NCBI GenBank assembly: GCA_963971425.1
Contig: OZ020523.1
Span: 19,635,105 to 19,699,104 of the forward strand
DNA: 64,000 nt
Reading direction: 5' to 3'
DNA from: Bryoerythrophyllum caledonicum
Lineage: Eukaryota; Streptophyta; Bryopsida; Pottiales; Pottiaceae
Shown: positions 961 through 61,912 of the stretch, one piece after another
How positions within the stretch are numbered: position 1 is the first letter of the stretch
How the letters are laid out: each line of letters starts with the position of its first letter
The notes under the pieces: generated by a model
Seen by the model: only the letters and a program-made list of their open reading frames with translations
Database searches by the model: none
Told to the model about the DNA's origin: nothing
Translations under genes and position numbers: made by a program

Positions 961-961
961 G

Positions 962-33402: not shown

Positions 33403-33516
33403 TAGCAAGAACACATAAGTAACGAGTAGCAAGAACATAAAAGTAACCTACCGGCAGTTGAAAGTGTCGTTCAAATTTTGAGAGAGAGAGATGTTTGAAG
33501 GTGTGTGAGAGCAGTT

Positions 33517-35085: not shown

Positions 35086-35258
35086 TTTTTACTTCGGTTA
35101 ACAGGGGTTTGTATAGGTGTAGGTGGGATCAGTCGTGTGTATAATCATTGTATGTTTAAGTTGTGTGTTATGGAGGTGAGTTCTTCTAGTTGTTCTATGG
35201 TGCCAATGGTTTGATTTTGATAATGGACACATATTATTTGTAATGTGGATGGTTCAAT

Positions 35259-36538: not shown

Positions 36539-36847
36539 TGTTCATAATGTGTGTGCCGTTAGGTAAAGTGATTTGTTTTAGTTCAAAAATATTTTTTGAT
36601 AGGAGTTTTTGTAGAAGCTTTTGAGAGAGTTGGGCATTGAGTGTGTCATGGTTTAGTGTTTCTTGGCGCCATATTATTTCTAGTGGTGTAGGGTCAATGA
36701 GGAAATTTGGGAACGTGCTTTTAAGGTGGGCTTTAGCTATGTGTTTTAATAGGAAGAATGTTCGTGTGATTGGTGATCTTATACAATCACTTTTTTTGAT
36801 TCTAGGTATGTTTTCGGCACCACCGTATTGGGCAAGGACATAATGAG

Positions 36848-37862
36848 TTAATCCATTATATATTTTTCATTTAGAGCATTTTGTAATTGTTCACCTATAC
36901 ATCGGAGATATGCGTTTTTAAGAGAGAAGGCTTCAAGCCCAAATAGATTATGTGGGAGTTGGGTTATCGCATTTGGCATACATTTTGGTAGTCCACATAT
37001 AGTTTTTTGTATGGCTATTATCTTCTGGTCAAGTTTTTTGATAGCTCGCATAGAGTATGGTACACTGTAGAAGCTGTATGCTATGCCTGGGCGTATTAGG
37101 ATATCAACCATTTTTATTTTTTGTTTCATGGTGGCCGGGCATGTTGTCAATTCTTTGCATTGTATGATGAGTTTTGTGGTTGTAGTGTGAATTTGAATTT
37201 TCCATTTTAGTGAATGGACAAGATTTGTACCTAGGTATATGTATGGTTCATTTTGATGTAGTATAGGGATTGGTTGATTGTGGTAATTGATGTTAGAAGC
37301 TTGCATTAGGGCTTTGAAAGTGGTGGGGTTTAATTTGGATTTGTTTGGGCATCCGGTAGCGGCACATTTGGGACACCTACGTCCATACCGGTCCATTTGC
37401 AATATCTATTAATTTTATTGAGTTGTATTTGTATAGATTTAATTTCGCTAGTTATGACCGCGAGGTCATCATCGTATGCTGCAAAGTTTATGATGGTTTG
37501 TGATGTGCCAAAGGTGTATCCATTGTTTCCCCGTTCAAGCCATCTAAGTAGTGGTTCTAAGAATATAATAAATAGGTATGAGCTAAGGGTATCTCCTTGT
37601 ATAGTTCCTCTTTGAATGGGTATAGGTTTTGTTTTTCCGAAGTGTTCTCCAATATAGTGAGTGGATGATTGGGAGTAGATGTTTCCAACAAGTGTAGTTG
37701 CATCTTTTGGGAAGCCGAGATCCGTCATTATTGCTAATAGTCTAGCGTGGTCTATCGAGCCAAAGGCATTTTTGAAGTCAACGTATAATATGTATATATC
37801 TTGGTTTGTAAACCGTGCATCTTCTAGTGCGGCTATTTGTATTTGTCGAGCGGCACTTCTTT
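36848..37862 (-). pseudogene. LINE reverse transcriptase, damaged (minus copy)
   Basis: Frames 37728-37330 and 37402-36848 carry RT motif B (QRGTIQGDTLSSYLFIIF) and motif C AAYDDDLAVI, where the usual YADD has become YDDD. Motif A VDFKNAFGSIDH is still readable just upstream, across a frame change. Compared with the plus copy about 190 bp of the RT N-terminal part are missing at about 37920-37935. Confidence 0.8.
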
Positions 37863-39905: not shown

Positions 39906-40308
39906 TTTTATAATATTTTGGTTATTTTCAATGAATGATATATAAGGGTGTGGAGTGTTAATGTGTCTTTCGGGAGGGTTTTGTAGGTTAGCAAGGGAGT
40001 TTAGTAGTGTATTAGTCCATTGAGTTATGTTTGGGCTTTGTGTGTTTAATAGGTGGTTACATTCGTCTATGTGTGGGTGGATTGTAGTTACTATGGCGTA
40101 TAGGATATGTGGTGGGGGGTGTTCATTTTGTTGTTGTATATATTGGATAATGTGTGGATGTGTGTTGGTGTATAATAGGTGTAGTGTATGAGTGGATTTT
40201 AGTATAGGTGCAAATGTTTGGGCAATATGTCTGTATTCCGGTTGTAATTTTATTGTGTTTAGTATGAAGTATATTTTGGCGTTCTTTTTGTGTTGTGTTG
40301 GGTGTATT

Positions 40309-41038
<730 letters not shown>

Positions 41039-41155
41039 TTTATTTGTTTGGTAGTATATAGATATACTATATATTTTTTTTGGGGAAGATAGTATTTATT
41101 TTAGTATAAATATATACTATGATATTTATTTTAATTGTAGCGTTGTTTGACGCTA

Positions 41156-42738
41156 TTAGTTTGACATATCCATCTTGTTTTCAATGGCTCGATGTTCTCG
41201 TTCTGATGCTTGTGTTTCCGCCGCCATGATGGTTGCAATGAGTTGGGATCGAAGAGTTGACATTTCCCCCCTAAGGAATTTTACCGTGTTTGTTTGCACC
41301 ATGTTTGCGTATTGTTTAGCTTCCTTGACAATTTCTCCTCTCATGGTCTTCATTTCTTTTCGGAGTTGTTGAAGGATGATGCCATTGCCTTTGTTTGGGC
41401 CATTTTCCATGGCTATTACCGCGTTGGCTACTGCTGAGTTGAATCCGTGAACCCAAGCCGTGTTAGTTCCTCCATGCTGGGTTTGTTGCTGCCATCTAGA
41501 CTCTTGGGGTGAGGGGTAAACATTATATATTTGCCGTGAAGTTTTTTGCTTTGTCTAACATATTTTTTTATATACGGCTGCATTTAGACATTCAATATTG
41601 CAAGTCCCTACGTGGCGCCTATGTTCAAGTTTGAAGAATGTGTCCACCACATACTCCTCCCCAAGTATGGATTTTATTCCTTCCTCTAGTTCTTTTCGTT
41701 TTTAGTTTTGTTAAGGTTTTTCGCAATTAAAATTAGACAGCTCTTCTTTGCAATCTCATCCTCATCCATCTTCCGGGTTGTAAAAATGGGTACAAAAATC
41801 TCATTATCAAATGATATTTTGTAGTCCTTTATATTGGCTGCTTGTTTTGGGGAGGGAGTTTTAACCCATGCAAACTTTGAAGAACATTTCTTTTCAACTC
41901 CTGTAACTTCGAAGTCATAGCTTCTAGCGAAACTATCTTTCACAATCTCCTCGTACAAGTTGTATGCCTCTATGTTGGCAAGGTTGGGGCCGGTTATTTT
42001 TATTGATAGGAGGTGTGAAAAAGCCAAGGAATCGTATGACTTGCATACTTTCCCTTGGTGTGGTATCCCTTCGTTTAGGATAAGGATGAAGGCCCTTAGG
42101 CCTTGTAGCATCCCTTTGGCATCAATCTCTGGGTTCTTAAGGTGTATTTTAGCCACACCAGTCCAATTGTCTGATTGGTGGTGGCAAAATATGGCAATTG
42201 GCTCTCCAATACATGTCCCTAAGGCAATGTCCATCTCTTTCAATCTTGTTTTAACCATGTCTAACACCACATGTTGTTTGGACCAGATTTGACTTCCTTA
42301 TTCAAAGTGAATGGAGATTTGGTAGTCCAAGGCAAAGCCATTTGTGTCCACCTCAACTTCACTTGGAAGTTGGGTGAGGTTGAAATGGTTTCCCTCTTTC
42401 CCATCAGCCCGTTTACAGGGCCATTCCTCTTGGGGGATAAATGGGAATGAGGGCATTGCCTCGCAACTTTCGGCTGCCTCCTTTTTGTCCATCCCATTCT
42501 CAATCATATCTTCAATGGTAATACTAGACACCTTTTGACCTCCATTTTTCTTTGCAATGGTATCCATTGTTTGGAAGCCTAGCCAGTATTTAGTTGAAGG
42601 CAAACTTGTTGCCTTCACCTTTTTCTGGATGGTGCTTGTGATCATTAAGAACTTTTGGGCTACATTCATAGGACGAGGGTTTTCTTCAACTACGTCAACG
42701 AAAAGGCGCTTGGAGGGCGTGGCGGTTGTCTGAGGCAT
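41156..42738 (-). pseudogene. LINE ORF1 (minus copy), broken
   Basis: From ATG 42738 the frame reads through STKYWLGFQTMDTIAKK, a HFNLTQLPS block and ALDYQISIHFE, then a TAA at about 42296-42298, and resumes in the same frame (VLDMVKTRLKEMDIALG...) to 41686; a frameshifted remainder ends in a coiled coil (LQQLRKEMKTMRGEIVKEAKQ) at 41410-41156. It parallels the plus-copy ORF1 block by block at low identity. No CCHC zinc knuckles are seen. Confidence 0.75.
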
Positions 42739-42739
42739 G

Positions 42740-45700
42740 CTGTAGAAATAAAATATAAGAGTGTTACTAGCTGAGTTGTACCATGTTACTATCGTTTTTC
42801 TCCTTATCGTCTTGATCTTAACATCTCCCTTCAACATGCGTTGAGGGCTTGTTGACCTTGAGATTCTCAAGAAGGAGTAAGATATGGCAAAATTAACATT
42901 GTACAAGGAATAGGACTGATAGTACATAACAAATGGTTGTGGAGGATGACTATCGCAATGACCTTTAACTACTCTTGCACAAACACACACACGAGAGGTG
43001 CCACAGTAAGGGTCACCTCCCCAAGTAACATGTTTTAATATTGATATTTGAATACATGCCCATTGGTTTACAAAATAAACCAGGTGATAGCAATGGTCAT
43101 AAAACTTTAAGAGAAATAGGAGGTTGTAACATGAGTATGTGGCTTCAAGTTGTGGTGACCTTGTGGTGTAGTGATTCGTAACCCTCTGGTTCCTTTGCAT
43201 CCTTGGAGCAGGTCGACCCACAGTGGGACTCCACCAGGTGTGGCCGATCCAACGTTCACTGACGCCCTTGTTTCTTGGCTGCTCTATGCTGGCGCCTAAT
43301 GATATGTGGCTGTTGGCGTTCTTCTACCCTCCCCCGTTCTCTCGCGTACAGGAGGTTACTCCATAGGTGGCTCTCCAGTTGCTCTTGCTCTCCACCCGCG
43401 AATTACCCTTGTCTTCGTTGTTGAGAGCTTTATCTCTTGTACTTGGCCTTTCCGGTCGGCTCCTCCACGGCTGCAGGCAGCGTTTCTTCTGGAGTTTGGG
43501 CGACGTCGATCGACTCCTCATTGACTCCAGGCGGTGCTCCTACGTTGCGATGACTTGTGTCTAGCTCCCCCTCAGCTGTTGGTATTCCAGGTGTGTTGAT
43601 TGCGATGCTCCACGCTTGTTTGGTGGTGCCGTCCGTTTGCGTGTTGTTGCAGCCCAGTTGTTTACGATCGTCGTTTCTGGGTCGGCTGAGTTGTGAGTTT
43701 CTTCAGGTCTTCGAGCTATGTTTTTTGGACTTTTGCTCGCTCGGGCTGATGAGGGTTGTGGCGGACGTGTCGATGTGAGTCGGCGGGAGGCAGTTTGAAT
43801 GAACCAGGCTACACCGGGATGCTGCGCTACCCTTCCTTTTTTCTTTTTTGTTGTTGACTGCGTGTGGACCTGGCGACTTCGAATGATCTGTGCGTGACTT
43901 GCTCGATTCACTTGGATCTGACGGTACGCTACTTCTGCCACCTTGCTACATTTGTTGTGGTTGTCTTTATGTCTGTCTCTTCTCTTCTTATGTTGCGGCT
44001 GTGTGGGAGGGGAGGAGTTAGTACATACTAAGTGGGTTCTACATGTGATTGTGAGGTGCCAAACTAGTGTGTGCGAGGGTTCATAAGTACTAATACAACA
44101 TAACAATAGATGATGCAGAGATAGAGTTAGGTATACTTCACTACTGAAAAATTTAAGTTGAGGGTCAAGCGGGGTCGACGAGCGTTGCCAGGGATCTGGT
44201 TTCCGCGCGCGCGGCTGCCGTAGCTTCTCCTCCTGTCGTTGTCTTTGGTCTGTCCCCCTTGTGTAGTCACTGTTGCCCTCCAAAAGTCCTTGCTCCCAGG
44301 TGTTGTTGAGAGTGGCCGCTAGGAAGGCGTGTAGAGAGTAGTCGAAAGAGTGATAAAAAGAGGGTTTCCCTATTGAATGAGTCACATGTTTTATACCTTG
44401 GTGGGTCTTCATGTGAAGTGTTGTCGTTTTTCGTTGCTGTTGTGTACATTCGTTTCTTGGGTTGGAGGCGGCTAGGATTTCGTGGTGCTGCCGACCGCGC
44501 GATTAGATCTTGAGGGTTGAGATGTCTGGATCTTGGATCTAGGGTTGCAAGTTTCTTGGCTTGGTCTTTTTTGGGTACCGTCGTTAGGTTTTTGTCGTAG
44601 GTCATTCGTCTTGGCGCTTTCCTTGTTGTGTCCGTTGGTAGCTTTGGCACGTAAACATTGAAGCTTATTATTGGTCCTGGTAACGGTCTTACTTTTGAAT
44701 TTGAAGGTAGTTGTCGTTAATTTCTGATGGTACCTGTTGCTGATTAGAGAAGGAAAACACACTATAAACAATGAGATTTGGGTGAGAGGACTTACCTGTG
44801 AGTTGACGTACCTCGATGTCGTGTTTGGTCTTGGGCTGTGGCGGCTGTGGAGATCCCATATTTGTTGACTCCTCATTGTTGTTGTTGGCCGCGGTTGGGT
44901 TAGCTTTGTCCTATTCCTGATTTTGTTGCATGTATCGCAGGTGGTTGAGTCGCTGGTAATCTTCCCCTGCTGGTTCGGTGTCGGTGCTGGCTGAAGCTGC
45001 TGGCAGTGGTTTGTTCCTGGCGCAAAACCTTCACTCTTCGTGGTTGGACCTACGCAATTTCGGAGTTGGATCTTCACGCTTTGGAGCTTGGCCTTCTCGC
45101 TTTGGAGCTGGGACATCGTTTTCTTGGAGCTTGGCCTATGTACTTTGGAGCAAGTCCTTTGTACTCCAGGAGCTGGTCCCCCACATTTTGGGGTTGGGTC
45201 TACGTTCTTGTAGAGCTCGGCTTGCGCGCTATGAAGCTGGGCCTTCGTCTCTTTGTAACTTGGCCTTCGTGCTTTGAGGCTGTCCCTTCGATCTCTTGGA
45301 GCTGGATCTATGTAGTTTGAAGCTGATCCTACATACTTCTGGAAGTGGGCCTTCACTTTTTGGAGTTGGGCCTTCATAATTTCGGAGTTTGGCCTGCGCG
45401 CTTTGGATCTGCTTCTTCGTAACTTTGGAACTGGGTACTCATACTTTTAGGGTAGAATCTTCGCATCTTGGAGCTGAACCTTTGTGCATTTGGAGTGTTG
45501 TTGTTGGTCTTGTTTATTGATGCCGGTGTAGGTCCTGTATCTTTGTTGTAGTCTCATGTGTTGCTTGGAGTCGGTGGTGGACTTGTTGCTACGATGTGCT
45601 CGTTCCTTCTGTAGCATCGATGTTGGGCCTGTTATTCTGATATAAATTTGATCCTTCTATAACGTTGAGCTATCGTGTGTCCGTCTCTTCTTTGGTGCTG

Positions 45701-46620
45701 AACTCGCGCTGTCTCGGAGTGATCTTGGTGTGTTGAGTGAGCTTGGTGTGCCAAACTATGTCCTGCTCGTCTCTGTCTGTTGTTCCATTCATGCGACTTC
45801 AGTGCTTCTCTATGTCAAGAGGTTAGTCAGTAGTATTGTTTTTACCACTCTTGTTGATTTGTGTGTTCCTAATATGCACTTTCTGGAACAAAATTTTATA
45901 AGATGTATTTTGCAAACAGAATCTAACTCATAATTTCTAAGGTGAAACGTTGTAAGCTATGTTATGTAAGGAGAATCTAAATTATGGTCTCTAAGGTAAA
46001 ACATTGTAAACTGTATTATGCAAGAAGAGTCTAGCATGCATTTTCTATCATAAAACATTGTAATATGTGACTTGCAAAAAGAAAGCTTTGTTGATTCTCC
46101 AGAGTTTCGTCCTTGGTACAGTTGTCTTGTGTCTTGGCAGCTAACTCGAGTCATGTGTAGGTAGTAGTTTGTCTTCATGATAATGCTAGAGTCCTAGTTG
46201 AGGAGGGGTTTGGTGTGGGGATATTCTGTGGTGCCGTGGTATCCTAGATCTAGATCTAATTGATTGAGAAATGATATGGGGGCTGCAACCTCTAGATCTA
46301 GATCTGAGCCAACACAGAGCCCCGCCATAGATCTACTCTTTCAAACTAGTACTTAGATTGTTGTGCCCTCATACATACTTTGTATCAATAGATCTAAGAT
46401 TTGCAATCCCTCCCAACACTCTCCACACCATCAATATACCTTTCAGCAACAAAGTAGTGCACACAGGGATTAACAATGAGCCCAACAACTCTCATTGTTG
46501 CGTGCATCTCATTTGCGCCTAACACCCAGAAACCCCTCCTCACTAGGTTTTGCCGAGCTACTCTTCTCTCATCTCACTCTCTTCAGATCTAGAGCTCCTC
46601 AAAACGGAAAATTGAAAATA
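42740..46620 (-). other. 5' region of the minus LINE copy, with degenerate repeats
   Basis: At 45036-45490 a degenerate minisatellite of roughly 30 bp (plus-strand words TTTGGAGCT(T/G)GGCCTTC) gives a Lys-Ala-Gln-Leu-Gln type repeat on the minus strand, inside a 301-codon frame. The 5' limit near 46620 is inferred from CAGATCTAGATCT-type and GTGAGGAGG words shared with the start of the plus copy; it could be wrong by hundreds of bases. Minus frames at 43561-44412 and 44267-44650 continue this low-complexity coding-like region. Confidence 0.4.
43150..43260 (+). mobile_element. Possible second tRNA-derived SINE head
   Basis: An A-box-like TGGTGTAGTGATTC at 43164 and a B-box-like AGGTCGACCCA at about 43210 resemble an internal RNA polymerase III promoter in plus orientation, inside the 5' region of the minus LINE copy. 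The element's ends are not clear. Confidence 0.3.
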
Positions 46621-46776
46621 ACCAACCTCTCCCCAAACTAAATGATACCCGCTAAAATCTTCCAAAACACACATTTAACCCACCACATTTCATCTCATCA
46701 AAAATTTGCCTTGTGGCTCTAACTTGATCCTTGGTCCGTGGAAACTGGTTACCAATTATTGATTTAATATTTTTGC

Positions 46777-46925
46777 TTACATAGTGTCTACCCTCGAGAG
46801 GAGGGAGTAGTTCCATACTACTTAATCGTTGTCTAGTGGACATTGGTTTAAGTGGTGGAACAAACAAACACTTTATTCACTCCGGCCCCCTTTAGCGAGG
46901 ACCGGAGTTCTTCTTTTTCTTCTGC
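46777..46925 (+). mobile_element. Tail-only LINE/SINE fragment
   Basis: GTGTCTACCCTCGAGAGG, AGTAGTTCC, GTGGAACAAACAAACACTTTATTC, a CTCCGG..CCGGAG hairpin and TTCTTCTTTTTCTTCT in plus orientation match the shared LINE/SINE tail. Nothing upstream matches a LINE ORF or the SINE body, so it is a 5'-truncated insertion. Confidence 0.7.
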
Positions 46926-48949
46926 TATCCTTGAAAGAATAAGGTAAAGGATAGTATATTGGTTAGTTCAATCCTTAAACGTCAAAAGGTGCTATTGGTG
47001 ACGACAACATTTTATACGTATAATGTCATATTCAAACATAATAAGGTTGAGATACTGAAATGACCTCCAAATGAAAGATATTAGTTGAAGAATTTTCAAT
47101 ATAAAGGTGTAAGTCTTATTAGGCTTTAGTATATTTTTGGTATTCTATAGAGTAAAATATGTCCCTGTTTATATGGTTCCCAACTGACGTTTAAGGGTCA
47201 AGGCATGCAACACACTTGAAATAGTGATCCACAAAAACAAAACAAAAAGCATTTACACTTATAATTTTGGATGAGAAGCTGAAATTCCAATTAGTTCATT
47301 AGAAATATGGGATTTTCTTAATGAACTATAAAAGTAAATCTTTGAAGACCTGTTTATGTTAGTAAAATACTCCACTTTTGTGCTCATTCATCCACCAATC
47401 TCTTGCCACCATTTTGGTGGGGATTGCTATTTTGCGTGCCCAACTTTGCGAGCCGCGAGCCGCGAGCCTAGGATTGCGAGTTTAGAAATAGAAAATTTTG
47501 TATTATTGAGAAAAGTGAAAGTGAAAATGAAGTTAAAAGTAAAAGTTCAAGAGAAGGGGCCCTATAGCCGTGGAAATTGATGAACCGTTGGCGTTTATAT
47601 TAATGTAGTCATTTTGTATTAGGGCTTTGAGCTTCGGGCTTTGGCGGTGATCTTGACTACTAAAATGGTTTAGGCATCCTATAACCGTGGGTGTCTGAAC
47701 CTTGATTCAAAATAAATTGGTAAATATTTGGATATACCATAGGTTTATAATCATTATATCAAACTCCACATAAACTATTATAAGAGTAATTTAACATAAA
47801 GATTTCCCCACACACATAATATAGATAGCCTTCAGTAGATTTTTCCCCACACGTTTGTCATAGATAGACTTGGGCAATAGGATGGACTCTTAAGTAGAAT
47901 GGTGGGCATCATTATTCAAAGCTACCTTGTATTGAACTCTGTAGAGCAATTCTTGAGAGGCTTGACAGTTCAAGTTATGTTCTGATTTAGGGTCATATTG
48001 TTGGACTTAGAAATTGTAGCCTTCAAATTGATGCAACTGGAAGTAATGAGTTTATAAGGGTGGAGAGGGCAGTAGGTATTCATGACATTTATTTTGGAAG
48101 TTCTTAGAGTTAGGCAAGTAGTTCACAGAGTCTTAGAAATTTTGTTTAATTGATATGGGTGTGCTTGAGTGATAGAATCATTTTGATTTGCTAGAAATTA
48201 AGTAGAGGTGACGAAGATGGAGCAAAAAAGTCTGAATGTAGACATCATAAAGCTTATTTGTTTGAAAAATGGTGAAAACTCAAAGCTACATTTTTTACTA
48301 CACTATGACTTTGAATGCAACTGGAAGTGGGTGATAACATTGACATCACCTTCAATGCGGTTGGTAATTTTGTGAAGGCATATAATTGTGTCATTTTGAT
48401 GAACTCTCAAGTATTGGAAATAATATGAGGGAAACAATCTCTTCAGAGGTTGATGTGCTGAACATTACAATTAAAGAACTGAAGTGGTTCATTGTGATCT
48501 TGTATATTCTTGGACGGATTTACTTTGATGGACCCGTTGAGTTGTTGATTACGCCGCCAGATTTTTGGAAAGCGGTTGATATGCTATTTGATGAGCTATT
48601 TGTTGCATGTATAAAGTATGAAGCACGGGCACAGGAGGCCACAGTCATTGCCGGAATGAATGACCATTTGACGCATGCAACTGCAATGTGTATTGGTGCC
48701 AAAGTACGATGATGACCATGAACTCAAATAGAATGCGGATTTCCAAGAGCTACATGAAGCATTAAATTCAGCACCACTTGTCAAGGTCGACAAAGAGAAT
48801 GGATACTGGTAGTGGTTTTACACCCACGTTTGTAAACAAAGTCCGTGAGGATATGGGTTTTGTTTAAAAACACGGGCAATTGATATCATATGCAATTGCA
48901 ACATTTCAAATGAGATATGAAATCTCATTGGCTATTCGATAGAATTGAG
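46926..48949. other. Spacer with a decayed coding-like relic
   Basis: Segment 48360-48830 has an open frame (48386-48712, including ILGRIYFDGPVELL and FDELFVACIKYEARAQEATVI) that is homologous, base by base in places, to 62870-63290. Neither copy is a long intact frame and I do not recognise the family, so I regard both as relics of one duplicated gene or transposon. The rest shows nothing. Confidence 0.45.
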
Positions 48950-49949
48950 GAAAATGAAGGCTGAGTGAGCTCCGTAATCTCTGGTGAGGAGGAGTGTGGG
49001 ACTTAGTCTCAAATCCGACGTCTTAGGCCACAAGGAGTGCTGGACCTTGTTGGGAGCCCCTATTTTGATTTTGATTTGATGCACGGGTTAGGCCTAGGAA
49101 GCAGACTGTGTTGGAAAGGCTCACATACTCCAGATCTGAGGTTTAGTGAGGGAATCGTGGTGTTTTGAAGTCAGATCTGTGGAAAGTTTAGATCTGAAAG
49201 CTTGGGGACTTGTGTTGGACATAGAACTCTTCGTACACCATCATTCCAAACTGCCTCACTCTTAGAGTATTTTCAGATCTGCAAGCCGCCCACAAGTCCT
49301 ACACCCTCCGATCCAGCGCCACAACATACAACATTGGAGAAAGGACGAGCATACTCGCGTTCAGGATCTCTTGCGCAATACAGTAGGCTATCTCTTACCC
49401 ACACAACATTTTCTCATTTTTTCTAAACCTAGTATTTGTATGTTTTATTTACACTTCTGTATTACATCTCAAACTCACACTAACACCACCCGAATGTTAT
49501 CTAGTGCACACTTCTAGTCACAATAGACACATCACTCTCACATACACTGAACACGTCGGTACTCACAACATAAGTGCACAAGTAGGGAAACATCAGCTGG
49601 CCACAGACAAGTCAAGGGTACAAATCGCATATAGGAGGTGTAGAGCAGATCTGGCATTCAACGATACCAGTACATACTCTAGGATCCTAACAAGAGATTC
49701 AAAGTCTCCGAACGGTGAGGTTCTGTGCAGAACTGATACCAAGACCCGCTCAAAGCATGACGACATAGATACACCAAGACACATCAAGAACAGCACACTG
49801 TACAAGAATCCCAGCACTCCCAACTCGAGGACCGATTCATTGAAGGCAAAGTCTAAGGGTGACCTGCAGCAGATGTCCAATCCCCAAAAGGCCGAGCCCA
49901 AGGACAAGAACAAAGAACGGCGCATAGATCCAAGAGACCCCGCCTCGAA

Positions 49950-52044
49950 AGTCGAAGAGAAGCACTAGAGCATCACGTTGAAAGCCAAGCTTGTAGCTGA
50001 GTACAGTGCCAGGCGGGACGATTCCCGCGACCCAGACCTCGAGGACGACGTGAACATCTACGAAGACAACCCTGCGCCCAACCCAGAGCACACACACGCC
50101 GCGACCGTAAGGCAAGGTAAGTTCTCTAACATCTTAAGCTATTGTTTACCATGTTTGCATAATAAAAAGATACAACAAATACAACATAACCACAAGATAT
50201 ACAAAACTGTAGCATCAATAAAACCCATAGTAATATCCCAAAAAACCATAAACATAGAAAGCGGCTACTTCACTAGTAAAGAACATATAAACCCTAACAA
50301 AACCCTAGCAAAACAAAACAAAAAACAAAAACTTCCAGTAAGTAAATTATGGCAGTACACACTAGTGCATAGGAAAGACCTTGTTTGGATCCAAAGTTGC
50401 AGACAAAATCAAGAAAGCAGGTGCAACCAACCTCAACTTTGCAAGCGCAGAAGACCAGAGATAAACGAAGACCACCATCAACGCACTCAAGACGAACACA
50501 CCACGTCCAACCCTGCAAGTACAAGTTCAACGATCAAAAGCCAAAGAAGGAGCAGCCGACCTGTGAGGCACCCCCGAATTAAACCACAATATTCACCTCT
50601 ACTCAACGGCCGCCACCAATCCTGCAGACACCGAAGCGCGCCCTCGAGAGATGAGCGCTACCGCCACCAAAAAGAGGAGCAGCTGCCCACCCTAGAAGAA
50701 CCCCGAGTCTCGCCACCAAACCAACGACGCCTCCAGTACTGCAGGTTGAAGTTACAAGAACTAATACAAGTGCAACGCCAAGGCGCGCCCTCGTGTGTAG
50801 TGCGCCACCCGCATAGTAGCCGGACACAGCCGGTAGTGAGCCAGGACGAACTCCAGTCATCACCCCAGCACAGCAAGAGTGAGCAGGGCCCAAATCGAGA
50901 CACCCCCCACAGAGTGCCCTTGCGCGAACCACGCCACTCTCATCAAGAACGTGGACAACCAGGCCCAAAACGTGATACGCCTCAGGACGTGCGTAACGGA
51001 CGCCTACAGGAATACAGACTTGCACTGTACCAAGATCAACGAACCCGAATCCAAGAGCAACAGAGACTAGTCCGGCGCGGAGTAGCGAACCAGGGCGCAC
51101 AGCCAGCAGGAAGCCAGGACGAACCTTAGTCAACACTCCAGAGGAACAGGAGGAAGCAGGGTCCAAATCGGGACATCCCCCGCAGAGCGAACTTGTGCGC
51201 ACCATACCACCCTCATCAAAAACTGGGACAACCAGGCCCAAAATTGGTCAAGTGCGGAATAACAAACCAGGGCGCGCAGCTAACAGTGAGTCAGGACGAA
51301 CCTCAATCAACGGCCCAGAACAGCAAGAGTGAGCAGGGCCCAAATCGGGACAACCCCCACAGAGCGCCCTTGCGAGAACCGCGCCGCCCTCATCAAGAAC
51401 GTGAACAGCCAGGCCCAGAATGTACTGCGCCTCAGAACGTGTGTAACGAACACCTGTAGGAATATAGACTTGCATCGTACCAAGACCAACGACCCCGAAT
51501 CCAAGAGTAGTGGAGATTGGTCAGGCGCGGACTAACGCAACAGAGCGCGCAGTCAGAAGCGAGCCAGGACGAACCCCAGCTAGTGCCCAAGAACAGCAAG
51601 AGTAAGCAAGGCCCAAATCGGGACAACATCCACAAAGCACCCTTGCCCGAACCACGTCACCCTCATCGAGATCGTGGACAACCAGGCCCAAGACTGGTCA
51701 GGCGCGGACCAACGAATCAGAGTGCACATCACCAAACCAGGACTCGCCCCCAGCGAGAACGTGGTCAGTCAGGCCCAAGGCAGATCAAGCGCGGACTAAC
51801 GAACCAGGATGAACATCACCAAATCACGACTCAAAAACATCGGACCAGGAGCGAAGCACAAAGCAGTTGCCTGCAAATAGCAGCACTCACTAAGGTACGT
51901 ACCTTTCCCCCCTGCAGTCGTTCATGGTTTTCAAACACTAAAAACCAAAATAATAAACTCAATAGAGAAGCCCCTCTCCCCCCTTGCATTGTCCCACTAA
52001 AAATCAGCTCTAATAAGTATACTAATTACCTTAGCTCTAATAAC
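49950..52044 (+). repeat. 5' region tandem monomers of the plus LINE
   Basis: The word CAGGACGAAC recurs at about 50840, 51114, 51294 and 51568, spaced 274, 180 and 274 bp; each is followed by AGCAAGAGTGAGCAGGGCCC-like and CCAGGCCCA words. A fifth, shorter unit ends near 51830. The frames 49978-51129 and 51517-52044 are open across it (Gln/Arg/Pro-rich). Such arrays in LINE 5' UTRs act as promoters in other families; here that is inference. Confidence 0.65.
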
Positions 52045-53676
52045 ATGTCTAATAGCAAAAGGAACCTTCGCTTTGAGGAAACGATGGATATAGATGAAGG
52101 AACCTCACATAAAACACTAGCCTCTAAAGAAAAAATAGGTAGGAAAAACATGGAAGAAATTGGCAGCAGCAAGAAGAGCAGAGGCACCGGCGACGAGGAA
52201 GGTATGTCCCCCCTCCTTGACCCCATAACCATGTCGTTCAAATTTTGGCTAGGATACAAAGCCATGGAATGTCTTGCAATCAAAGAAGGACTTGAGGAAC
52301 TCCCACGTGATGAGAAAGTGGAGGATATGATGACACGGGGATTCCAAGAACACGAAGCGAAGGAGTTCAAAACCTCAAGGATGGCATTCCCAAGGATCCC
52401 ACAACTCTACTATCCAATTTCAAGACCGGGGAGTGACGAACAACATTACAATATCACTCAACTTCCCAAAGGCACCAAGATCACCGATGCCACAGGTTTG
52501 GCCCTTGACTTCCATGTTGCTATTCACTTTGAGCCACCCTCTTCTACCTTATTGCATGATGATGTCCACAAGATGATAAAACAAAGACTAGAGGTCATGA
52601 AAATCAAACTAGGGTCAAAAGTCATGGATTCCATCTACATTCAATGCCATAGTGTCAAAAGAGGGGGACAAAAAGGAGTGTGGACCGGCATGTTTAAGCT
52701 CCATTTACTCAACCCCGAAACGGATGCACTTATGTTGTTAAAGGGAATAAGGCCTTTTATTCTCACCTTTGACAACCACGACACCATTGGCAAGGTATGT
52801 AAATCCTTCCCTCTCATTGCTAACTCTTCTAACCTATCCGTGCAAGTGAGAAGTGACTCATTGATAGGTACATCATCCCATCAACTCTTCAAGGACATCC
52901 TTTACAATAGCTTCAAGAGAGGCCAAGATTACGAGATCACGGGAGTGACCAAGGGAGAAGGTGATTCACTAGCCTTCATTGCCGCGACCACCCCCTCCCA
53001 AGCTTCAAAGATTCAACTACAACATATCACCACCCACCACGAGATCATAAAAGCAAGGAAGACCTACATTGGAGGAAGAGTGACACCCGAAACCAAGGCC
53101 AAGAAGGATGCCATCTCTCTCACCCTCTCCCCCTTACCCCTCCTAATGAGTGTGCATGATACTACTAATGCTATTCACAAGATTATAGGAGAGAACAACA
53201 TTAACTCCATTTGGTTCCACAAGGAAATAGAGGGTAGTCATAATGGCAAGGCTAATGTTGAATGTACTAACCCCATTGTGTATAAGCAATTTGTCAAGAA
53301 ACAATTTGGCATAGGCGACAACTTCGTGGACTTTGCTCCACATTGGAAGAGCTTAGAAGGAAAACAACCTCCTACCGAAGAACAAATCAAGACCTTTGGT
53401 TTCAACGACATCAACACCGCAATGATCAACACCGTTGCAACCTTTAAGATCCAAGATGCCCCCGCCAACATCACCGAGAAAGAATTGAAGGAAGCTTTAG
53501 AAGAAAACAACAAGAAGATGTTAGAAGAAAGCAAGAGATACACCGACGCATTGCATGGTGAGTTGGTAGAGCAAATGGACAAAGTGGAGAATGCTATGAA
53601 TGCCACATTGCTTGCACTCCAAGCCATGAAGGGAAGAATGCCACAAAGACTCGAAGACAAGCCGCCAAACATGTGA
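52045..53676 (+). CDS. LINE ORF1, 543 residues, unknown fold with C-terminal coiled coil
   Basis: Starts at ATG 52045 (MSNSKRNLRFEE), chosen because upstream the same frame runs into the tandem monomers and because homology to the other copy begins a little downstream. Conserved blocks shared with the minus copy: KFWLGYKAMECLAIKEG, EDMMTRG, YNITQLPKG, GLALDFHVAIHFE, then KVCKSF and YEITGV. The last 80 residues form a coiled coil (EKELKEALEENNKKMLEESKRY...). There are no CCHC knuckles or RRM motif that I can see. It is intact and overlaps ORF2's frame, which lies at -1. Probable role: RNA-binding particle protein, by position only. Confidence 0.72.
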   Translation: MSNSKRNLRFEETMDIDEGTSHKTLASKEKIGRKNMEEIGSSKKSRGTGDEEGMSPLLDPITMSFKFWLGYKAMECLAIKEGLEELPRDEKVEDMMTRGFQEHEAKEFKTSRMAFPRIPQLYYPISRPGSDEQHYNITQLPKGTKITDATGLALDFHVAIHFEPPSSTLLHDDVHKMIKQRLEVMKIKLGSKVMDSIYIQCHSVKRGGQKGVWTGMFKLHLLNPETDALMLLKGIRPFILTFDNHDTIGKVCKSFPLIANSSNLSVQVRSDSLIGTSSHQLFKDILYNSFKRGQDYEITGVTKGEGDSLAFIAATTPSQASKIQLQHITTHHEIIKARKTYIGGRVTPETKAKKDAISLTLSPLPLLMSVHDTTNAIHKIIGENNINSIWFHKEIEGSHNGKANVECTNPIVYKQFVKKQFGIGDNFVDFAPHWKSLEGKQPPTEEQIKTFGFNDINTAMINTVATFKIQDAPANITEKELKEALEENNKKMLEESKRYTDALHGELVEQMDKVENAMNATLLALQAMKGRMPQRLEDKPPNM

Positions 53677-55025
53677 AGACCAATGACCACACGGTTATCC
53701 ATACTTACCACCCAACTAGTTCTACACAACATATACGGTACTCTATACAATACATATACTATCAGTATACTAATACTATACACATAATAGTAGACATGTA
53801 CTTGGGCAGTACATACATACAATGTACTACCCCCCATTCATATACCAATACAATTTCTATACATGACATGTATACATACATGAACATCCAATGTATCATC
53901 CATCAAATGGAATACCCCATACAATACACAAAAAACTATACCAAAAACTATGCCAAGTACAAATACCAAATACCAAAGAAAATAACACACACATATACAT
54001 ATAAAAATAAACACATTATAATGTACAATATACATAACAATACACCAACAAACACACAAAGATACATACACACAAACATACCAACATGCACACACACGAA
54101 AAACATACAAAATAATACACAAAACAACACATTAAAAAGTCCAAAAAAAACACAAACAAATTGGCACAAAATAGCACCAAATACTACAAAACCACACACA
54201 CCATACACAAAAAAAAAGAGAACTACTAACATACAAATCAATACACACAAACTCACCCCAAATACAAAACAAATAACAAACATACGTGTAAAAACCTCTA
54301 GAAATACAACAAAAGAAAAAACAACAACATATCCAAATAAAAAACTATATCCATTACATACCGAGTACAACTACAATAAAATAAAAACAAAAAAACTTCT
54401 CCAAAAAAAACTTCTTTTCTTTCCGCGTAAAACCATAAGAACAAAAAAAATTCTAAAACAAGACATCAAACCAAAACATTTAAAACTCACAATACTATTA
54501 GGTGGAGACATCGAAATTAACCCAGGCCCAATGCCCAATTTACTAAAAAGACACCCCCCATCACATAAAAAAAGGGGGAAATTATACTTCATACCTAATA
54601 CAATAAAATTACAACCGGAATATAGACACATTGCAAAATCCTTTGCACCCTTCCTAAAAAACACACACACACTACACCACACACAAAACAATACACATCC
54701 ATACATAGCCCAATACGTACAACAAAAGAATACACATCCATCACCCCACATCTTATATGCCCTAGTAATCACTACCCATCCACAAATAGACGAATGTAAC
54801 CACCTCCTAAACCCACAAAATTTATCCACAATCACATGGACCAACACACTCCTACAAAATATACTAAACTTACCAAACCCGCCAGAAAGACACATCCATA
54901 CTCCACACCCATATATAAAATTTCTTGAAGACAACCAAAATATTATAATTTCAGAAAACTCAATACATAAAAAACTATATGACTTCTTACATAGACAAGC
55001 CACACCCCCTCAAATGAAACAATAA
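53673..55025 (+). pseudogene. LINE ORF2 leader with 2A-like motif
   Basis: Open frame of 450 codons starting in -1 overlap with the end of ORF1 (no ATG at the start). The first 270 residues are low-complexity, rich in Thr, Asn, Lys and Tyr. Then LKLTILLGGDIEINPGP, a textbook 2A-like motif, followed by about 165 residues leading to the endonuclease. A frame change near 55015-55022 separates it from the APE frame in this copy, whereas the corresponding part of the minus copy is continuous, so the break is copy-specific. Confidence 0.75.
54507..54530 (+). other. 2A-like ribosome-skipping motif (DIEINPGP)
   Basis: The codons read Asp-Ile-Glu-Ile-Asn-Pro-Gly-Pro, matching D(V/I)ExNPGP, preceded by the hydrophobic LKLTILLGG. 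2A-like sequences are known in some non-LTR retrotransposons. The predicted break is between Gly 54525-54527 and Pro 54528-54530 and would free the leader from the APE-RT polyprotein. Confidence 0.8.
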
Positions 55026-56530
55026 AATTAAAGTTCCCTTACCTCCCTGACAACCTCATTAATGAAACACTAAGATGTTTCGACCCCATACCAGAATATA
55101 CACGCCCACCCCCACCTCCCTGTTACATCCCTCCACAAAATCTAAACATTAGAACAAATCAAGAAGATACACATATAATTACATGGAATGCCTCCTCACT
55201 AAACACTGCCCTTCCTAGCCTACAAAATCTGGTTACAAACAGAGAAACACCACCGGCCCTCATAGTGATACAAGAAACAAAACTATCTGCCACAAAATCC
55301 ATAAAATATATACAAAATATATTCCCAAATTATAAACTCATCTTTAACAATACACATGCACTTACGAGATGTATCCAACAACGTAGACCATATACACCGG
55401 GCCGAGGGGGCCTCCTTACAATAATACACAAAAAATACGCCTTCCCGGACAACATCAACAAAATTCCTACCCCAATGCATATATCACCCTACATTCAAAT
55501 AATCAAAATCACTAATCACCCACTACAACCGTGGCTAATCTTTCACATGTATATGCCATCCCATCCGGAAGATACCAGATATATCACAGACATACAAAAC
55601 ACTATTACATCCCAAATTAATAACAATCCCAATCATACATACTTATTATGTGGAGACTTCAACAGAGACATAGCGCTAATTGGCCACCAAAATGGAAACC
55701 AACACACCCCCCCTCAAAACAAAGACTACCAATGGCGGCGCTTCACAGAAAACTTAAACTTTACCTACGTAAAAACCGATACATAGTTCTCTAGACAAGG
55801 TGGCTATAACTATAATGATTGGAGTCTAATAGATGGATTCTACATAAATACAAACAACAATGCACAATACACCTCCACAACAAATATAGATATTACTCTC
55901 AACTCGGACCACTCACCCGTACAATTGCACATCCCAAACAACACACTAATTAGTAGAACCCCTACAACTCCAAACAAAGACACAATACGCATACTCAATC
56001 CCATCCCAAAAACCAACATAGAAAAATTCAACACAAAATTCTTCGAAGAAAACTCCGTACAAATAGAATCCCTCATAAACACTCTTGAAAATAATAGTCA
56101 ATTAACACAAGCACAATGGCAAGAAGCATGTCACACCTTAGACAAACTCGTCAATAAAATCTCTGATACACTAGAACAAACTTGTAGAGCACACCCAATA
56201 CCTCACATGACAAACAAAACCTCTCAACAAGGCGGGTACCTACCCCGCAAACTTTCAAAGACCTGGAAACAACACTTAACCACATATCACACCATACGCA
56301 AAACCATTAGAATTGTAAAAAACAACCCTCAATGGCGTAACCACCCCATATACAGTGAACTACTAACTCTACAACACATCCAAATCCCTACCCCGCCGCC
56401 TCCGGACCTTCCCCACGATACATGGATAAATGATATCGCGCTAATTGCAAAAAATGCCAACATACAAGCACGGAAAGTAATCATAAAATACACCAAAGAA
56501 AACATTAAAAAAAGCCATCTCAAAATATAG
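55022..56530 (+). pseudogene. LINE APE-type endonuclease and APE-RT linker, plus copy
   Basis: Reading frame from ATAAAATTAAAG at 55022. Endonuclease marks: TWNASSLN near 55181, VIQETKLS near 55268, LLCGDFNRD near 55645, SDHSPVQLHIP near 55905. This domain nicks target DNA in APE-type LINEs. TAG at 55784-55786 replaces a CAG (Gln) kept in the minus copy, and an extra A in the A-run near 56508-56514 shifts the frame just before the RT part. The two lesions together make it nonfunctional. Confidence 0.83.
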
Positions 56531-59500
56531 ACAACTACATGAAAACAGCCCAAAAAAAATTAACAAAAAAATCTTTAAAAACCTTGAATCTCCACCAATG
56601 GATTGCATCACGGATCAATATAATAATATTCTAACTAGCCCCGAAGACATTGCGAATGAAATATTTAACCAAAAAACAAAAACCAATAGACCAACAGTAC
56701 CAACATGTAATTACCAGCCACGGCATACAATAGATTGTACATGTGCAGTACGCCAATACCCATGGCATGACCTGGACGGATATACCCTTGAGAAACGAGG
56801 CGAACCAGAAATTCCACTACATAAATACCTCAATAGAGCCATATACGACACATGCCTTCAAAATCTTGGAAACAATAAAGCCCCAGGCCTAGACCGCATA
56901 CCAAACTCAATACTCAAAAACATGCCTCCAAGATTTCATAAACTACTATTTCTATTCTTCTCCCACTGCTACAAACAAAAGCAAATACCAAACTCATGGA
57001 AATTAAGTACAACAATTTTACTATACAAGAAAGGTGACCCGTCCATGCTACCCAACCATAGGCCAATTGCACTAGCTAACACAATATATAAACTCTTCAC
57101 TAGTACACTCACTGCCATACTATCCTCATATGGCGAAAAATTCAAAATCCTACATGATAGTCAAGAAGGATTTAGAGCAGAGAGAAGTACCGCAAGACAA
57201 ATACAAACCATAATAGCCGCACTAGAAGACGCAAAATTTACTAACCAAAATATATACATACTATGCGTAGACTTCAAAAATGCCTTTGGCTCAATTGACC
57301 ATGCCCGACTTCTAGCAATAATGATGGATCTTGGTTACCCAAAAGAGGCAACTACACTTGTTGGAAACATCTATTCTCAATCATCTACCTGCTACACCGG
57401 TGAACACTTTGGGAGAACAAAATCTATACCCATCCAAAGAGGAACTATACAAGGGGACACCCTTAGCCCATACCTATTCATTATATTTCTAGAACCACTA
57501 CTCAGATGCCTGGAAAGAGGAAATTACGGATACACTTTTGGCACATCACAGGTCATAATAAACTCCGCCGCATATGCAAATGACTTAGCCACCATAACTA
57601 ATAAAATCAAATCAATCCAAATACAACTAAATAAAATCGATAGATATTGTAAATGGGCCGGTATGGACGTCGGGGTTCCAAAATGCGCCGCTACTGGGTG
57701 CCCAAACAAATCCAAACTAAACCCTACCACTTTCAAAGCCCTAATGCAAACCTCTAACATCAATTACCGCAATCAACCGATCCCCATACTACACCAAAAT
57801 GAACCATACATATACTTAGGTACAAATCTAGTTCCCTCACTAAAATGGAAAATACAAATCCACACTACGACGACAAAACTCATTAAACAATGCAAAGAAC
57901 TAACATCATGCCCAGCAACCATGAAACAAAAAATAAAAATGGTTGATGTCGTATTACGCCCAGGTGTGGCATATAGTTTCTACGGTGTACCATACTCTAT
58001 GCCAGCTATCAAAAATCTTGATAAAAAAATAATAGCCATACAAAAAACCATCAGTGGATTACCAAAATGCATGTCAAATATATCAACCCAACTTCCAGAT
58101 AACCTATTCGGACTTGAAGCTTTCTCCCTCAAAAACGCATATTTCCGATGTATAGGCGAACAATTGCAAAATGCTTTAAACGACAAAGGAAGGCTTGGGA
58201 GAATATATAATGGATTAACTCATTATATCCTTGCCCAATACGGTGGCGCCGAAAACATACCCAGAATTAAAAAAAGCGACTGCATAAGATCACCAATAAC
58301 GAGAACACTCTTCTTACTAAAACATATAGCTAAAGCCCACCTTAAAAGTACACTCCCAAACTTCCTCATTAACCCTACACCACTTGAAATACTATGGCGA
58401 CAAGAAACACTAAATCACAACACACTCAATGCCCAACTCTCCCAAAAAATTCTACAAAAACTCCTCTCAAAAAATATTTTTGAACTAACCCAAATCACTC
58501 TACCTAATGGTACACACATCATGAACTATGAAGACTTCAAAATCTACCACTTCACCCCAACTAAGCTATTAAAAAGTGCCCTAAATGTTGCTAAACAACT
58601 ATTTTTCCACCCAACATGCCCCACCACATGTCATACCTCTTGTAACATACACCCATACTCGCACACACTTAAGGATTCACTCATCACCCTCAAGAATAAC
58701 ATCATCCCAAGAAATATTCATACACCAAGCAATCCCCCCTACCCCCAACATACATATCATCCCCGCCCCCCAACATACATCTCCAAAAACCCTACAACAT
58801 ATCCCATCAATAACATCATAAGCCATAAACATATCCAACACATAGACACAAATAACATACAAAACACCTACACAAAATATTTATGCCAATGGCAACACAA
58901 TGATAACACATACACTAAATGGCTCCACCAAAGAGACCTATTTCCAAGACATGACAACAATACCTCTACACATAACACCGAAAAATTAAAACAATACTAC
59001 CAAGAAATCCAAAACAAAATATACTCAGATATCATCCAAACCCACCACCAACAAGAACAACTTTTAGACTCAAGGTCTGTAACGCCACCCATAACTATTC
59101 CACTTTTAAACATTTATACAACAGAATGCAACCCCGAAAAAGATATCCTCACATCTTCAAACACAATTCTAATAGATAACGATCAAGCACACCTATATGA
59201 AGAAAATGGACGACACTTACACACCATCCCCATTACTCGTCTCCAATGGCTATGGAATCGATACAATACGAAATTACAAACTCCCACAAACATCGAACCA
59301 ACGACCCAACCCTTTGAAACCGAACTAATCTGGTTATACCAAAGGTACAAATACCGAATACCAAAAACTGACCCCCTCAAAAATGCACAATATACCTTAC
59401 CCACTCCCATTTTAGACTCACTAATCTCATCCTTTAACATTGAACAATCATATTTCTCTTCCCCGGTCACATGTTCTACCAAACTAAAAAAATTCTACTC

Positions 59501-60197
59501 ACCTTATGAAAGACACAAAATATTCGGTTCCTTAGGAAAGGCCTTTGATTATAAATGGATCGGCAATGGTATAGCTCATCCCCACAAGGAGAAGGATATG
59601 GAACAAGCGATACATTGGGCTCGACTTGCCGCCAAACAAGATCCAAATAACACAAATACAATCATCATCACACCGAACAATAATTGGTACCAAAACAACA
59701 ACCTACACTCCAACCCATTTCCCGATTCCCATATCATTACATTATTTGAAGCAGACACAATACCATACGAGGAACCTACTATCCCACCCGAACTAAAAAA
59801 ACCCCGAATCGAGCCATCTATAGTACAAATACTATGCGTCCATCATCAAAATAAAACCCTTGGCTCTCCTGAACAAATCGCGGAACTCACCTCCATAACT
59901 AACAATCTAGACATACACCGATTATACACAAAACTGGCCCCACCAACACCCATACAAACCCCCATAAACAAAAGTAAAATCTGGTCAAAACTGAATTATG
60001 TAAACAACACAATAAACTATTCCATCACACCCCCCCTCTTCCAGAATACCAAACTCATACCACACCAAAATTTAACCCCGCACACAGCTATTACACTGAT
60101 GGCTCCTTTAAACCACCCGAACAAATTAGCCCAGGCTCTTGGCGCAAAGAAAAAGCTGGCTATGGCATTTATAATTCTACCAAGGAAATTAAATTAG
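56515..60197 (+). pseudogene. LINE reverse transcriptase and long linker, plus copy
   Basis: A frame of 1199 codons from ATG 56598 (homology starts slightly upstream). RT motifs in order: NKAPGLDRIPNSILK, LYKKGDPSMLPNHRPIAL, SQEGFRAERST, motif A CVDFKNAFGSIDH (Asp at 57270), motif B QRGTIQGDTLSPYLF, motif C AAYANDLATI. In motif C the first catalytic Asp is Asn (AAT 57579-57581), so polymerase activity should be lost. After the thumb, a linker of roughly 700 residues (LFFHPTCPTTCHTSCNIH, WLWNRYNTKLQTPTNIE, GKAFDYKWIGNGIAHPH) precedes the RNase H, which is in the -1 frame. The last 40 or so codons before 60197 overlap the RNase H frame and are not homologous to anything in the minus copy. Confidence 0.85.
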
Positions 60198-61552
60198 CCA
60201 AAAGACTCCATGGACTACAAAATATCCTCAGAGCAGAACTCATGGCCATTTACAAAACACTACAAATCGTCACAACGAAATACAAAAATGAACCCGCACA
60301 TATATTCACCGATTGTATAAATGCACTTTACCTACTTAACACTCAAATAACACACCCTACCCTTCATAACAGTCACCCCGACCAAACTATATTAACATCA
60401 ATGGTCCAAATGTTACAAAATCGTACACAAATCACAACCCTCCATAAAGTGAGAGCCCATGCCAACATTGATGGCAACGAACAAGCAGACAAATTAGCAA
60501 AAGAAGGCCGAGAGAAAACATACAAAAATGCCAAAGACCCACACGAACATGCCCATGCTACCCCATACTACTTTCAGAAAGAAGATTGGCCTTCCAAAGA
60601 AGATACCCCCGACAAAGGCCCAATTAGATTCTTGGGCAAATATCTCAAAAAACAAGACCTCTACAACAACCTTGATACAATCTCAAAGAATATTCCTAAC
60701 ATAGAAAAATGGACCAACAATAAAGACATTGACAATGAATTGTCTACAAATTTCTGGAAAAATCCAATTATTTCAGACTCACAAATAACATGCCTCATTA
60801 AATTTCGTACCGGTCAATACATGGGAAACGCCCGCAAACAACTCTTCTTTGGAATTGAAAGATTCCCATCCATAACATGCCCCATATGCCCCTCAACAGA
60901 CCCTGACACATGGCTCCACGTTTTACTTAAATGCCAAAACCACCACATACACTCTTTAATCGTCAAAAGACATAATAAAGCGGTATGGGAAGTTCGTAAA
61001 CTAATCACCTCCTGTAACAAATCGAGATGTTTTATACTAATGAACGCCGGCACTTATAACAACAATCCACAAGAAAATACGGTCCCTCATTGGCTGCTCC
61101 CATGCTCATGCTCGACTCAAAGGTGTCATTGTAATGCTAGGCTCAAACCGGACATCCATTGTGTTAAAGGCTTACCATATAATGACCCACCACCCAATAA
61201 CATCAACCAAGGCTACACCATCCAATTCATTGAATTCACATATTGCAACGACAGATTTTCCCCAAAAACAATCCAAAATAAAATAGATAAATACCAACCC
61301 CTTACTGAGGACATCATTTCCCTCGGATGGAATGTGGACCCCCTAATTGTTATCACATCACGCGCTCGTGCCACCACCTTTATTCCATCTATGAAAACCC
61401 TAGAAGATACCTTCAAAATACCCAATGAATCAATCAAAAACACCTTTAAAAACATTAACACCATCGCCACTCAATATGCCATGTCCATTTTACTACATAA
61501 ACGCAAAATTGAAAACAACCAAGTCCTTCTCGATATACAAGACCCCCCTTGA
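59978..61552 (+). pseudogene. LINE RNase H, CCHC finger and restriction-like endonuclease domain, plus copy
   Basis: Frame -1 relative to the RT-linker, open from about 59978. RNase H: YYTDGSF at 60089, ILRAELMAIYK, FTDCINALYLL, VRAHANIDGNEQADKLA at about 60450-60500. Then FRTGQYMGN and the finger CPICPSTDPDTWLHVLLKC (CX2C-X9-H-X4-C) at about 60879-60935. The C-terminal part ARLKPDI (61140), IQFIEFTYCND (about 61220-61255), KIDKYQPL (about 61283-61306) and GWNVDPL has the PD...E...K-x-x-K-Y layout and CCHC neighbour of the restriction-like endonuclease of R2-type elements. This part is itself intact. The RLE call is motif-based and needs a structure-level test. Confidence 0.75.
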
Positions 61553-61769
61553 TTTCACCCCCCGTTTTGATTTATTTTGATTGGTTAGTCTATAGTTCTA
61601 GGCTGCTTGCTTTATTGCTTTGGGGTTCTCTTGGCTGCTTGCTTGGTTGGTTGGAGGTTTCGTTTGTTGAGGTTATGATTTGCGAGTTTCTAGCTATTCG
61701 TTGCAATGGTTGCCTTGTTTGTGATTGGTTGGTTGATTGGTTGGTTGGTCTCTGGTTCTTTGGCTACTT
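61553..61769 (+). other. LINE 3' UTR, GGTT-rich
   Basis: Between the ORF2 stop and the shared tail, with many TTGGTTGGTT words. No coding signal. The strand composition switches here from A/C-rich to G/T-rich. Confidence 0.6.
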
Positions 61770-61912
61770 GTTACATAATGTCTACCCTCGAGAGAGGGAA
61801 GTAGTTCCAGCTTACTAATTCCTTGTCCAGTGGGCATGGTCTTAGTAGTGGAACGAACAGACACTTTATTCACGCCGGCTTCCTTCGGAGGCCGGCGTTC
61901 TTCTTCTTCTTT
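61770..61912 (+). repeat. LINE 3' tail with hairpin and TTC repeat
   Basis: ACATAATGTCTACCCTCGAG, then GGGCATGGTCTTAGTAGTGG, AACAGACACTTTATTC, and a hairpin (CGCCGGCTTCC / GGAGGCCGGCG, TTC loop) immediately followed by TTCTTCTTCTTC. Same layout as 33259-33402, 46777-46925 and the SINE at 5241-5591. Confidence 0.88.

Follow-up and report, generated by a model that had tools for sequence, protein, structure and literature searches.

R2 retrotransposons carry a finger followed by the spaced residues PD...E...K..KY, have neither an apurinic/apyrimidinic endonuclease-like (APE) domain nor RNase H, and target 28S ribosomal DNA. Dualen/RandI elements are reportedly non-long-terminal-repeat (non-LTR) retrotransposons treated by Kojima and Fujiwara in 2005. 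Passages of two papers describe APE together with a PD-(D/E)XK-type nuclease in one such element (PMC3636483, PMC4640811), and a passage of the second describes the Dualen reverse transcriptase (RT) as lying between the clades with a restriction-like endonuclease (RLE) and those with APE. Here we analyse a window of 64,000 nucleotides (nt) from Bryoerythrophyllum caledonicum (contig OZ020523.1), which contains two copies of a long interspersed nuclear element (LINE); in both, APE stands before RT, and a finger and PD...E...K..KY follow RNase H. Both window copies are dead relics. They probably come from a non-LTR retrotransposon that is young, very large and of the Dualen/RandI dual-endonuclease type, which this LINE resembles in joining APE, a putative RLE-type endonuclease and RNase H in one element. 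It has in addition a PCIF1-family domain, a chromodomain-like stretch, a 2A site and a length of 12-16 kb, and is set beside Dualen/RandI by description only.

The two copies lie on opposite strands (copy 1 on the plus strand, copy 2 on the minus strand; Table 1), and two long pieces of them align with 85.4% and 82.3% identity. The original prediction, made from the letters of the window, had pointed to TWNASS, QETKL, GDFNRD and SDHSP before RT and to a finger with LKPDI...IEFTYCND...KIDKYQPL after RNase H, and both sets were found in both copies. The extent it had assigned, 55022-61552, covers only part of copy 1. The second open reading frame (ORF2) of copy 1 is broken by frameshifts near 55.0, 56.5 and 60.0-60.2 kb and by a stop at 55784-55786, and its RT reads YAND in place of the catalytic YADD. 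In copy 2, the APE, RT, PCIF1-like, RNase H, finger and RLE motifs are spread over separate open pieces, no target-site duplication (TSD) was found flanking the element, and a 2A match was looked for and not found. The likely TSD of copy 1 is a 10-mer, weak when taken alone (another, unrelated 10-mer match was found); its position strengthens the call, one copy adjoining the (TTC)n and the other preceding the conserved start of the element. Copy 2 also contains, at 40310-41037, some 243 units of (TTG)n in an array with 100% matches, and in two copies elsewhere in the host genome, L023 and L027, the ORF2 leader opens with long simple triplet arrays.

The family recurs elsewhere in the host genome (437,360,962 bases in 894 contigs searched). 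The end of copy 1 ORF2 matches at least 96 places at 93-100% identity, a lower bound drawn from 10,201 first-look candidates, and the matched stretch is free of stops in 95 of the 96. Ten host copies were fetched, selected for long open frames. Each has a single open ORF2 of 3371-3764 codons from stop to stop, of which 2341-2345 follow the 2A site; these lengths replace the roughly 2,600 codons first estimated. All ten carry APE, RT, RNase H, finger and RLE motifs, with the exception that QETKL is found in nine. The ORF2 order in the host copies is a variable leader with 2A, APE, RT, chromodomain-like stretch, PCIF1-family domain without NPPF, RNase H, finger and RLE-type motifs. Whole elements are about 12-16 kb long; their 5′ start is conserved, with GAGCTCC and TGGTGAGGAGG found repeatedly, and they end in a short 3′ tail. 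TTTAGGG repeats stand at the beginning of host contig 1 and fit green plants and also other groups; these telomeres lend weak support to the land-plant-like host proposed in the original prediction.

In copy 1, APE, RT and RNase H all exceed their Pfam cut-offs; in copy 2, RT and PCIF1 do so, and APE and RNase H fall below, in separate pieces. The RT motif AAYADDLA is present in all ten fetched copies. Against solved structures, the RT region scores highest with R2 proteins (104.8, 94.0 and 93.6 bits), followed by human L1 ORF2p (74.4 bits); a further R2-type protein, 8gh6, which we take to be silkworm R2, scores 54.0 bits, below human L1. These scores depend on the query: L1 is absent among matches at E ≤ 1 with a longer query and present with RT alone. 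This comparison of R2 and L1 bit scores would fit an RT placed between the RLE and APE clades. The resemblance to R2 covers both the RT, closest among solved structures, and the order of finger and PD...E...K..KY; unlike R2, the LINE has APE and RNase H and shows no fixed target.

The C-terminal region is read as a putative RLE from motif, position and conservation. The finger, PD and E are present in all 18 rows of an alignment of three subfamilies, the most distant of which share 66% of residues with the window row; K..KY as patterned is present in 16 of them, and P179, D180, E207, K226 and Y227 (alignment numbering) are invariant. The ten full-ORF2 host copies all have finger, PD, E and K..KY. 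When the residues were shuffled 200,000 times, the combined finger and RLE pattern, which was written post hoc, arose in none of the shuffles, and the ratio of nonsynonymous to synonymous substitution rates (dN/dS) over this region is 0.05-0.15 in four of six pairs, the other two being saturated. Conservation, shuffles and dN/dS, together with an RT nearest to RLE-bearing R2, argue against the alternative in which a gag-like or nucleic-acid-binding zinc domain stands here in place of a nuclease and APE does all the cutting. Several results nevertheless weigh towards that alternative and against an RLE. With 141 of 314 alignment columns invariant, the invariance of the motif residues is modest evidence; an RLE profile found nothing in the PDB at E ≤ 10; Pfam gave weak rows only (DUF3501 in 7 of 18 rows, best E 0.035); and an AlphaFold2 model of the finger and RLE region was too poor to use (predicted local distance difference test, pLDDT, 44.7). 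A CCHC motif downstream of RNase H in L1 ORF2, described in a passage of PMC5348765, also lends the zinc domain a precedent. Taken together, we regard a non-nuclease zinc domain as unlikely and prefer the RLE-type reading. The predicted Dualen/RandI organisation, with APE, an RLE-type domain and RNase H, has good support from motifs, order and selection, whereas neither profile nor model supported the RLE fold; the structural check proposed for the last 250 ORF2 residues, run as the model above, did not confirm a PD-(D/E)XK fold.

There was no match of the RLE region to PHROGs, and Foldseek with the poor model gave nothing at E ≤ 0.001. Arenavirus and bunyavirus cap-snatching nucleases hold PD-(D/E)XK folds; 13 of the 50 Foldseek matches listed (E 0.7-1.8) are such nucleases or L polymerases, which is no evidence with a model of this quality.

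Between RT and RNase H, the linker of about 700 residues in the original prediction proved to hold a PCIF1-family domain and, upstream of it, a chromodomain-like stretch (YLCQW...KWLPQRDLF). Both window copies score above the curated cut-off of PF12237, as do all 150 genome places scored from 2,614 first-look candidates; the DNA of 17 of these places was inspected and is this LINE in every case. The same search matched 0 of 14 control genomes, and all 19 alignment rows match at E ≤ 0.1 (best 7.7e-15). These counts speak against a match that arose by chance or from the A/C-rich, N/T/P-rich composition of the protein, as does the profile alignment to solved PCIF1 6irv, which runs through the catalytic motif with the LINE's AHPH under ANPPF, though at E 0.73. 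The alignment to 6irx (E 0.14) ends before the ANPPF place. Both E values make the profile link to solved PCIF1 a weak one, and the AlphaFold2 model of the PCIF1-like region was too poor to use (pLDDT 37.8); both count against a PCIF1 relationship and are the ground on which a chance match could stand, yet we hold such a match to be highly improbable.

The asparagine of NPPF is essential for N6-adenine chemistry, and none of the 19 rows has it at the aligned place, where they read HPH, HPN or YPH. G[IL]AHPH occurs in 17 of them and AYPH and AHPN in the other two; NPPF is found in none of the ten full ORF2s. Copy 1 has HPHK, within NGIAHPHK from 59565, and L045, a copy outside the alignment, has AHSH. 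The domain has a dN/dS of 0.19-0.21 in three pairs, the other three of six planned pairs not being cuttable by the motifs used, and because of these values we take it to have been kept although NPPF was lost. It thus resembles PCIF1/CAPAM, the cap-adenosine N6-methyltransferase, in its PF12237 match and its weak alignment to solved PCIF1, and differs in having lost NPPF, in being embedded in a retrotransposon and in the absence of a WW domain from Pfam scans. A working methyltransferase with HPH in place of NPPF, acting on the element's own cap or on another base, would agree with the dN/dS values and with the recurrence of G[IL]AHPH; the missing asparagine argues against it, and fly PCIF1, described in a passage of PMC9916840 as catalytically dead and still binding the phosphorylated C-terminal domain (CTD), is a precedent for a dead domain that is kept. 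We consider this enzyme quite unlikely, and read the domain from its sequence as probably an RNA- or cap-binding pseudo-methyltransferase. A passage of the same paper places recognition of 7-methylguanosine (m7G) in PCIF1 between the helical and methyltransferase parts (PMC9916840).

The chromodomain-like stretch is more tentative, and its scores stand against a firm assignment: of 15 rows from relatives, nine match Pfam Chromo, none over the cut-off (best 20.1 bits, 6.1e-4, versus 25.1). In a profile search of the PDB, chromodomains account for all five matches with E ≤ 10 (E 0.2-1.4). With a chromodomain-like module in its polyprotein, the LINE recalls the chromoviruses (Ty3/Gypsy elements with a chromodomain); unlike these, it is non-LTR, its module lies between RT and RNase H, and the match is below threshold. 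Accessory domains in non-LTR polyproteins are known, such as the RNA helicases mentioned in a passage of PMC6338049. In open-licence literature, mostly titles and abstracts, we found no report of PCIF1 or a methyltransferase, or of a chromodomain, in a LINE.

The enzyme part of ORF2 is preceded by a long leader and a 2A-like ribosome-skipping site. Such 2A/StopGo sites in APE-type non-LTR retrotransposons are reportedly the subject of Odon et al. (2013), and GDIExNPGP before the enzyme part would be their counterpart here, judged by its motif. All ten fetched copies have the canonical core GGDIETNPGP, which conforms to the definition (D/G/C/N)(V/I)ExNPGP as given in a passage of PMC12846837. 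All ten also have a degenerate 2A (NPRP) about 170 residues upstream, and two have a further canonical-like core; this upstream module and the dual-endonuclease setting distinguish the LINE from those 2A elements. Splitting ORF2 at the 2A site in nine copy pairs, with well-aligned codons only, gave ratios of nonsynonymous to synonymous differences per site (pN/pS) of 0.16-0.43 after 2A (nine pairs; 2344-2346 codons) and 0.54-0.85 before it in eight pairs (531-1218 codons), the ninth being without synonymous change. Constraint is tighter after 2A in all eight pairs with a defined ratio. Purifying selection on the part after 2A is strong, and it was also seen separately on the PCIF1-like, RNase H and RLE parts. 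We read the part before 2A as a long, variable leader that is apparently translated, little constrained and cut from the enzyme by 2A.

ORF1 frames of 447-1817 codons end beside ORF2 in eight of the ten fetched copies; L009 and L015 have no frame of at least 250 codons at that position. In L015 (joined with L016) a full ORF2 opens only about 0.6 kb after the 5′ start, and hence no long ORF1 precedes it. No Pfam family exceeded its cut-off in five fetched ORF1s, nor in one frame first taken as ORF1, which was set aside as lying upstream of the L015 element. Seven of the eight copies have ORF2 in frame -1 of ORF1, the two overlapping by 16-175 nt. The ORF1 stop is directly preceded by CAAAC or CAAACATG in seven of the eight (L013, L017, L019, L021, L023, L025 and L027) and in both window ORF1s. 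The motif and the -1 frame may form a coupling or frameshift signal.

Duplications of 12-13 bp, directly after (TTC)n, flank nine of the ten fetched copies; in L009, the only duplication match found does not adjoin the tail. The duplicated sequences vary among the fetched copies, and no fixed target was seen. Between duplication and element start lie 5-59 nt of unrelated sequence in all nine full-length copies with both ends of this interval located (the count leaves out window copy 2 and L009, whose junctions were not placeable), and the 5′-truncated L021 has no such extra sequence. Two of the nine extras were searched genome-wide, and each was found at its own site only (≤3 mismatches allowed); against the fetched loci, extras of more than 12 nt matched elsewhere only in pieces of 11-13 nt. 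The sister copies L023 and L027, 99.6% identical, bear unrelated extras. Start sites in the flank of the parent, jumps of RT onto another RNA and repair filler are candidate sources. The extras would also be explained if the LINE handled capped RNA 5′ ends, with the PCIF1-derived domain, the chromodomain-like tether and the PD-(D/E)XK-type nuclease jointly selecting capped element RNA and adding short foreign leaders as insertion is completed, a scheme that we offer as a long shot.

At the other end, the last ~146 nt are conserved, with a multi-branched fold and a terminal UUCG hairpin. In a set of 26 tails (LINE tails, one fragment and three tails of a short interspersed nuclear element, SINE), 96.0% of cells pair, versus 38-47% when the structure is slid, and 11 of 38 pairs changed on both sides, versus 4.9 in shuffles; further pair types were not above shuffles in these tails (319 of 500). 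In one copy (L025, 8761-8803) the terminal hairpin loop is inverted, with CCCGAAGGG instead of CCCTTCGGG. The window holds a tRNA-like SINE with the same tail; the tails of this SINE and of those at L020 and L026 are 71-73% identical to that of the LINE. Boxes like those of a tRNA promoter were judged by eye in the SINE head, and ARAGORN found nothing in the SINE at its usual threshold; a relaxed threshold gave three weak candidates, of which one lies on the head. That a SINE carries the LINE's 3′ tail implies that the LINE RT would recognise this tail.

These features suggest a course of retrotransposition. The 2A site would free the enzyme from the leader, which would then be free to vary. 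One of the two nucleases would make the first cut, RT would bind the 3′ tail and begin reverse transcription at the nick, and the second cut would set the near-constant stagger of 12-13 bp. Chromatin may be where the chromodomain-like part anchors the complex. Because NPPF is lost and the domain is nevertheless conserved, the PCIF1-derived part would most likely bind RNA, perhaps the capped 5′ end, rather than methylate it.

Elsewhere in the window, a recent insertion of an LTR (long terminal repeat) retrotransposon occupies 20325-27505, with direct repeats of 1452 bases (20325-21776 and 26054-27505) that are 99.7% identical and ORFs between them that match RT weakly. At 12634-13317 lies a portion of an asparaginase gene of the host (Pfam Asparaginase_2, 4.8e-41).

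Table 1 Positions of the LINE copies, their parts and related SINEs in the 64,000-nt window
Feature	Position	Strand	Remarks
LINE copy 1, full length, inactive	48954..61910 (approx.)	+	Conserved 5′ start, ORFs, 3′ tail and (TTC)n
Likely 5′ TSD of copy 1, TTGCAACATT	48896..48905	+	Second copy at 61911-61920
Non-element sequence of copy 1, 48 nt, TSD to element start	48906..48953	+	Seen also in other full-length copies
ORF1 of copy 1 (stop to stop)	51511..53676	+	No Pfam family
2A-like ribosome-skipping site GDIEINPGP, copy 1	54504..54530	+	
APE endonuclease domain, copy 1	55178..55918	+	Pfam PF03372 1.2e-6 (first part) and motifs; contains the stop
Reverse transcriptase, copy 1	57036..57821	+	Pfam PF00078 (RVT_1) 7.6e-25
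Chromodomain-like stretch, copy 1	58803..58988	+	Pfam Chromo and profile search of PDB
PCIF1-family (PF12237) domain, copy 1	59277..59705	+	44.1 bits versus cut-off 31.1
RNase H, copy 1	60086..60511	+	Pfam PF00075 2.3e-13
CX2C-X9-H-X4-C finger, copy 1	60878..60934	+	CPICPxTDPDTxLHVLLKC
RLE-like motifs KPD...E...K..KY, copy 1	61142..61303	+	
Conserved structured 3′ tail of copy 1	61761..61906	+	UUCG hairpin, then (TTC)n
LINE copy 2, inactive	33264..46572	-	5′ end near 46572
Isolated LINE 3′-tail fragment	46767..46916	+	
tRNA-like SINE with LINE 3′ tail	5242..5591	-	Likely 10 bp TSD AGAAAGGGCA
Second, degraded fragment of the same SINE	956-1224	-	

Dual-endonuclease LINEs bear on the origin of APE LINEs from RLE LINEs and on why an element would keep both nucleases. 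A young family with open ORF2s and conserved APE and RLE-type motifs makes the question of the two nucleases testable. The contrast in constraint across the 2A site offers a natural case of 2A parting an enzyme from a fast-changing leader, and the LINE/SINE pair with its covarying 3′ tail provides a defined RNA substrate for the RT. If confirmed, a relative of a cap enzyme within a LINE polyprotein would be a new route by which a retroelement recognises its own RNA.

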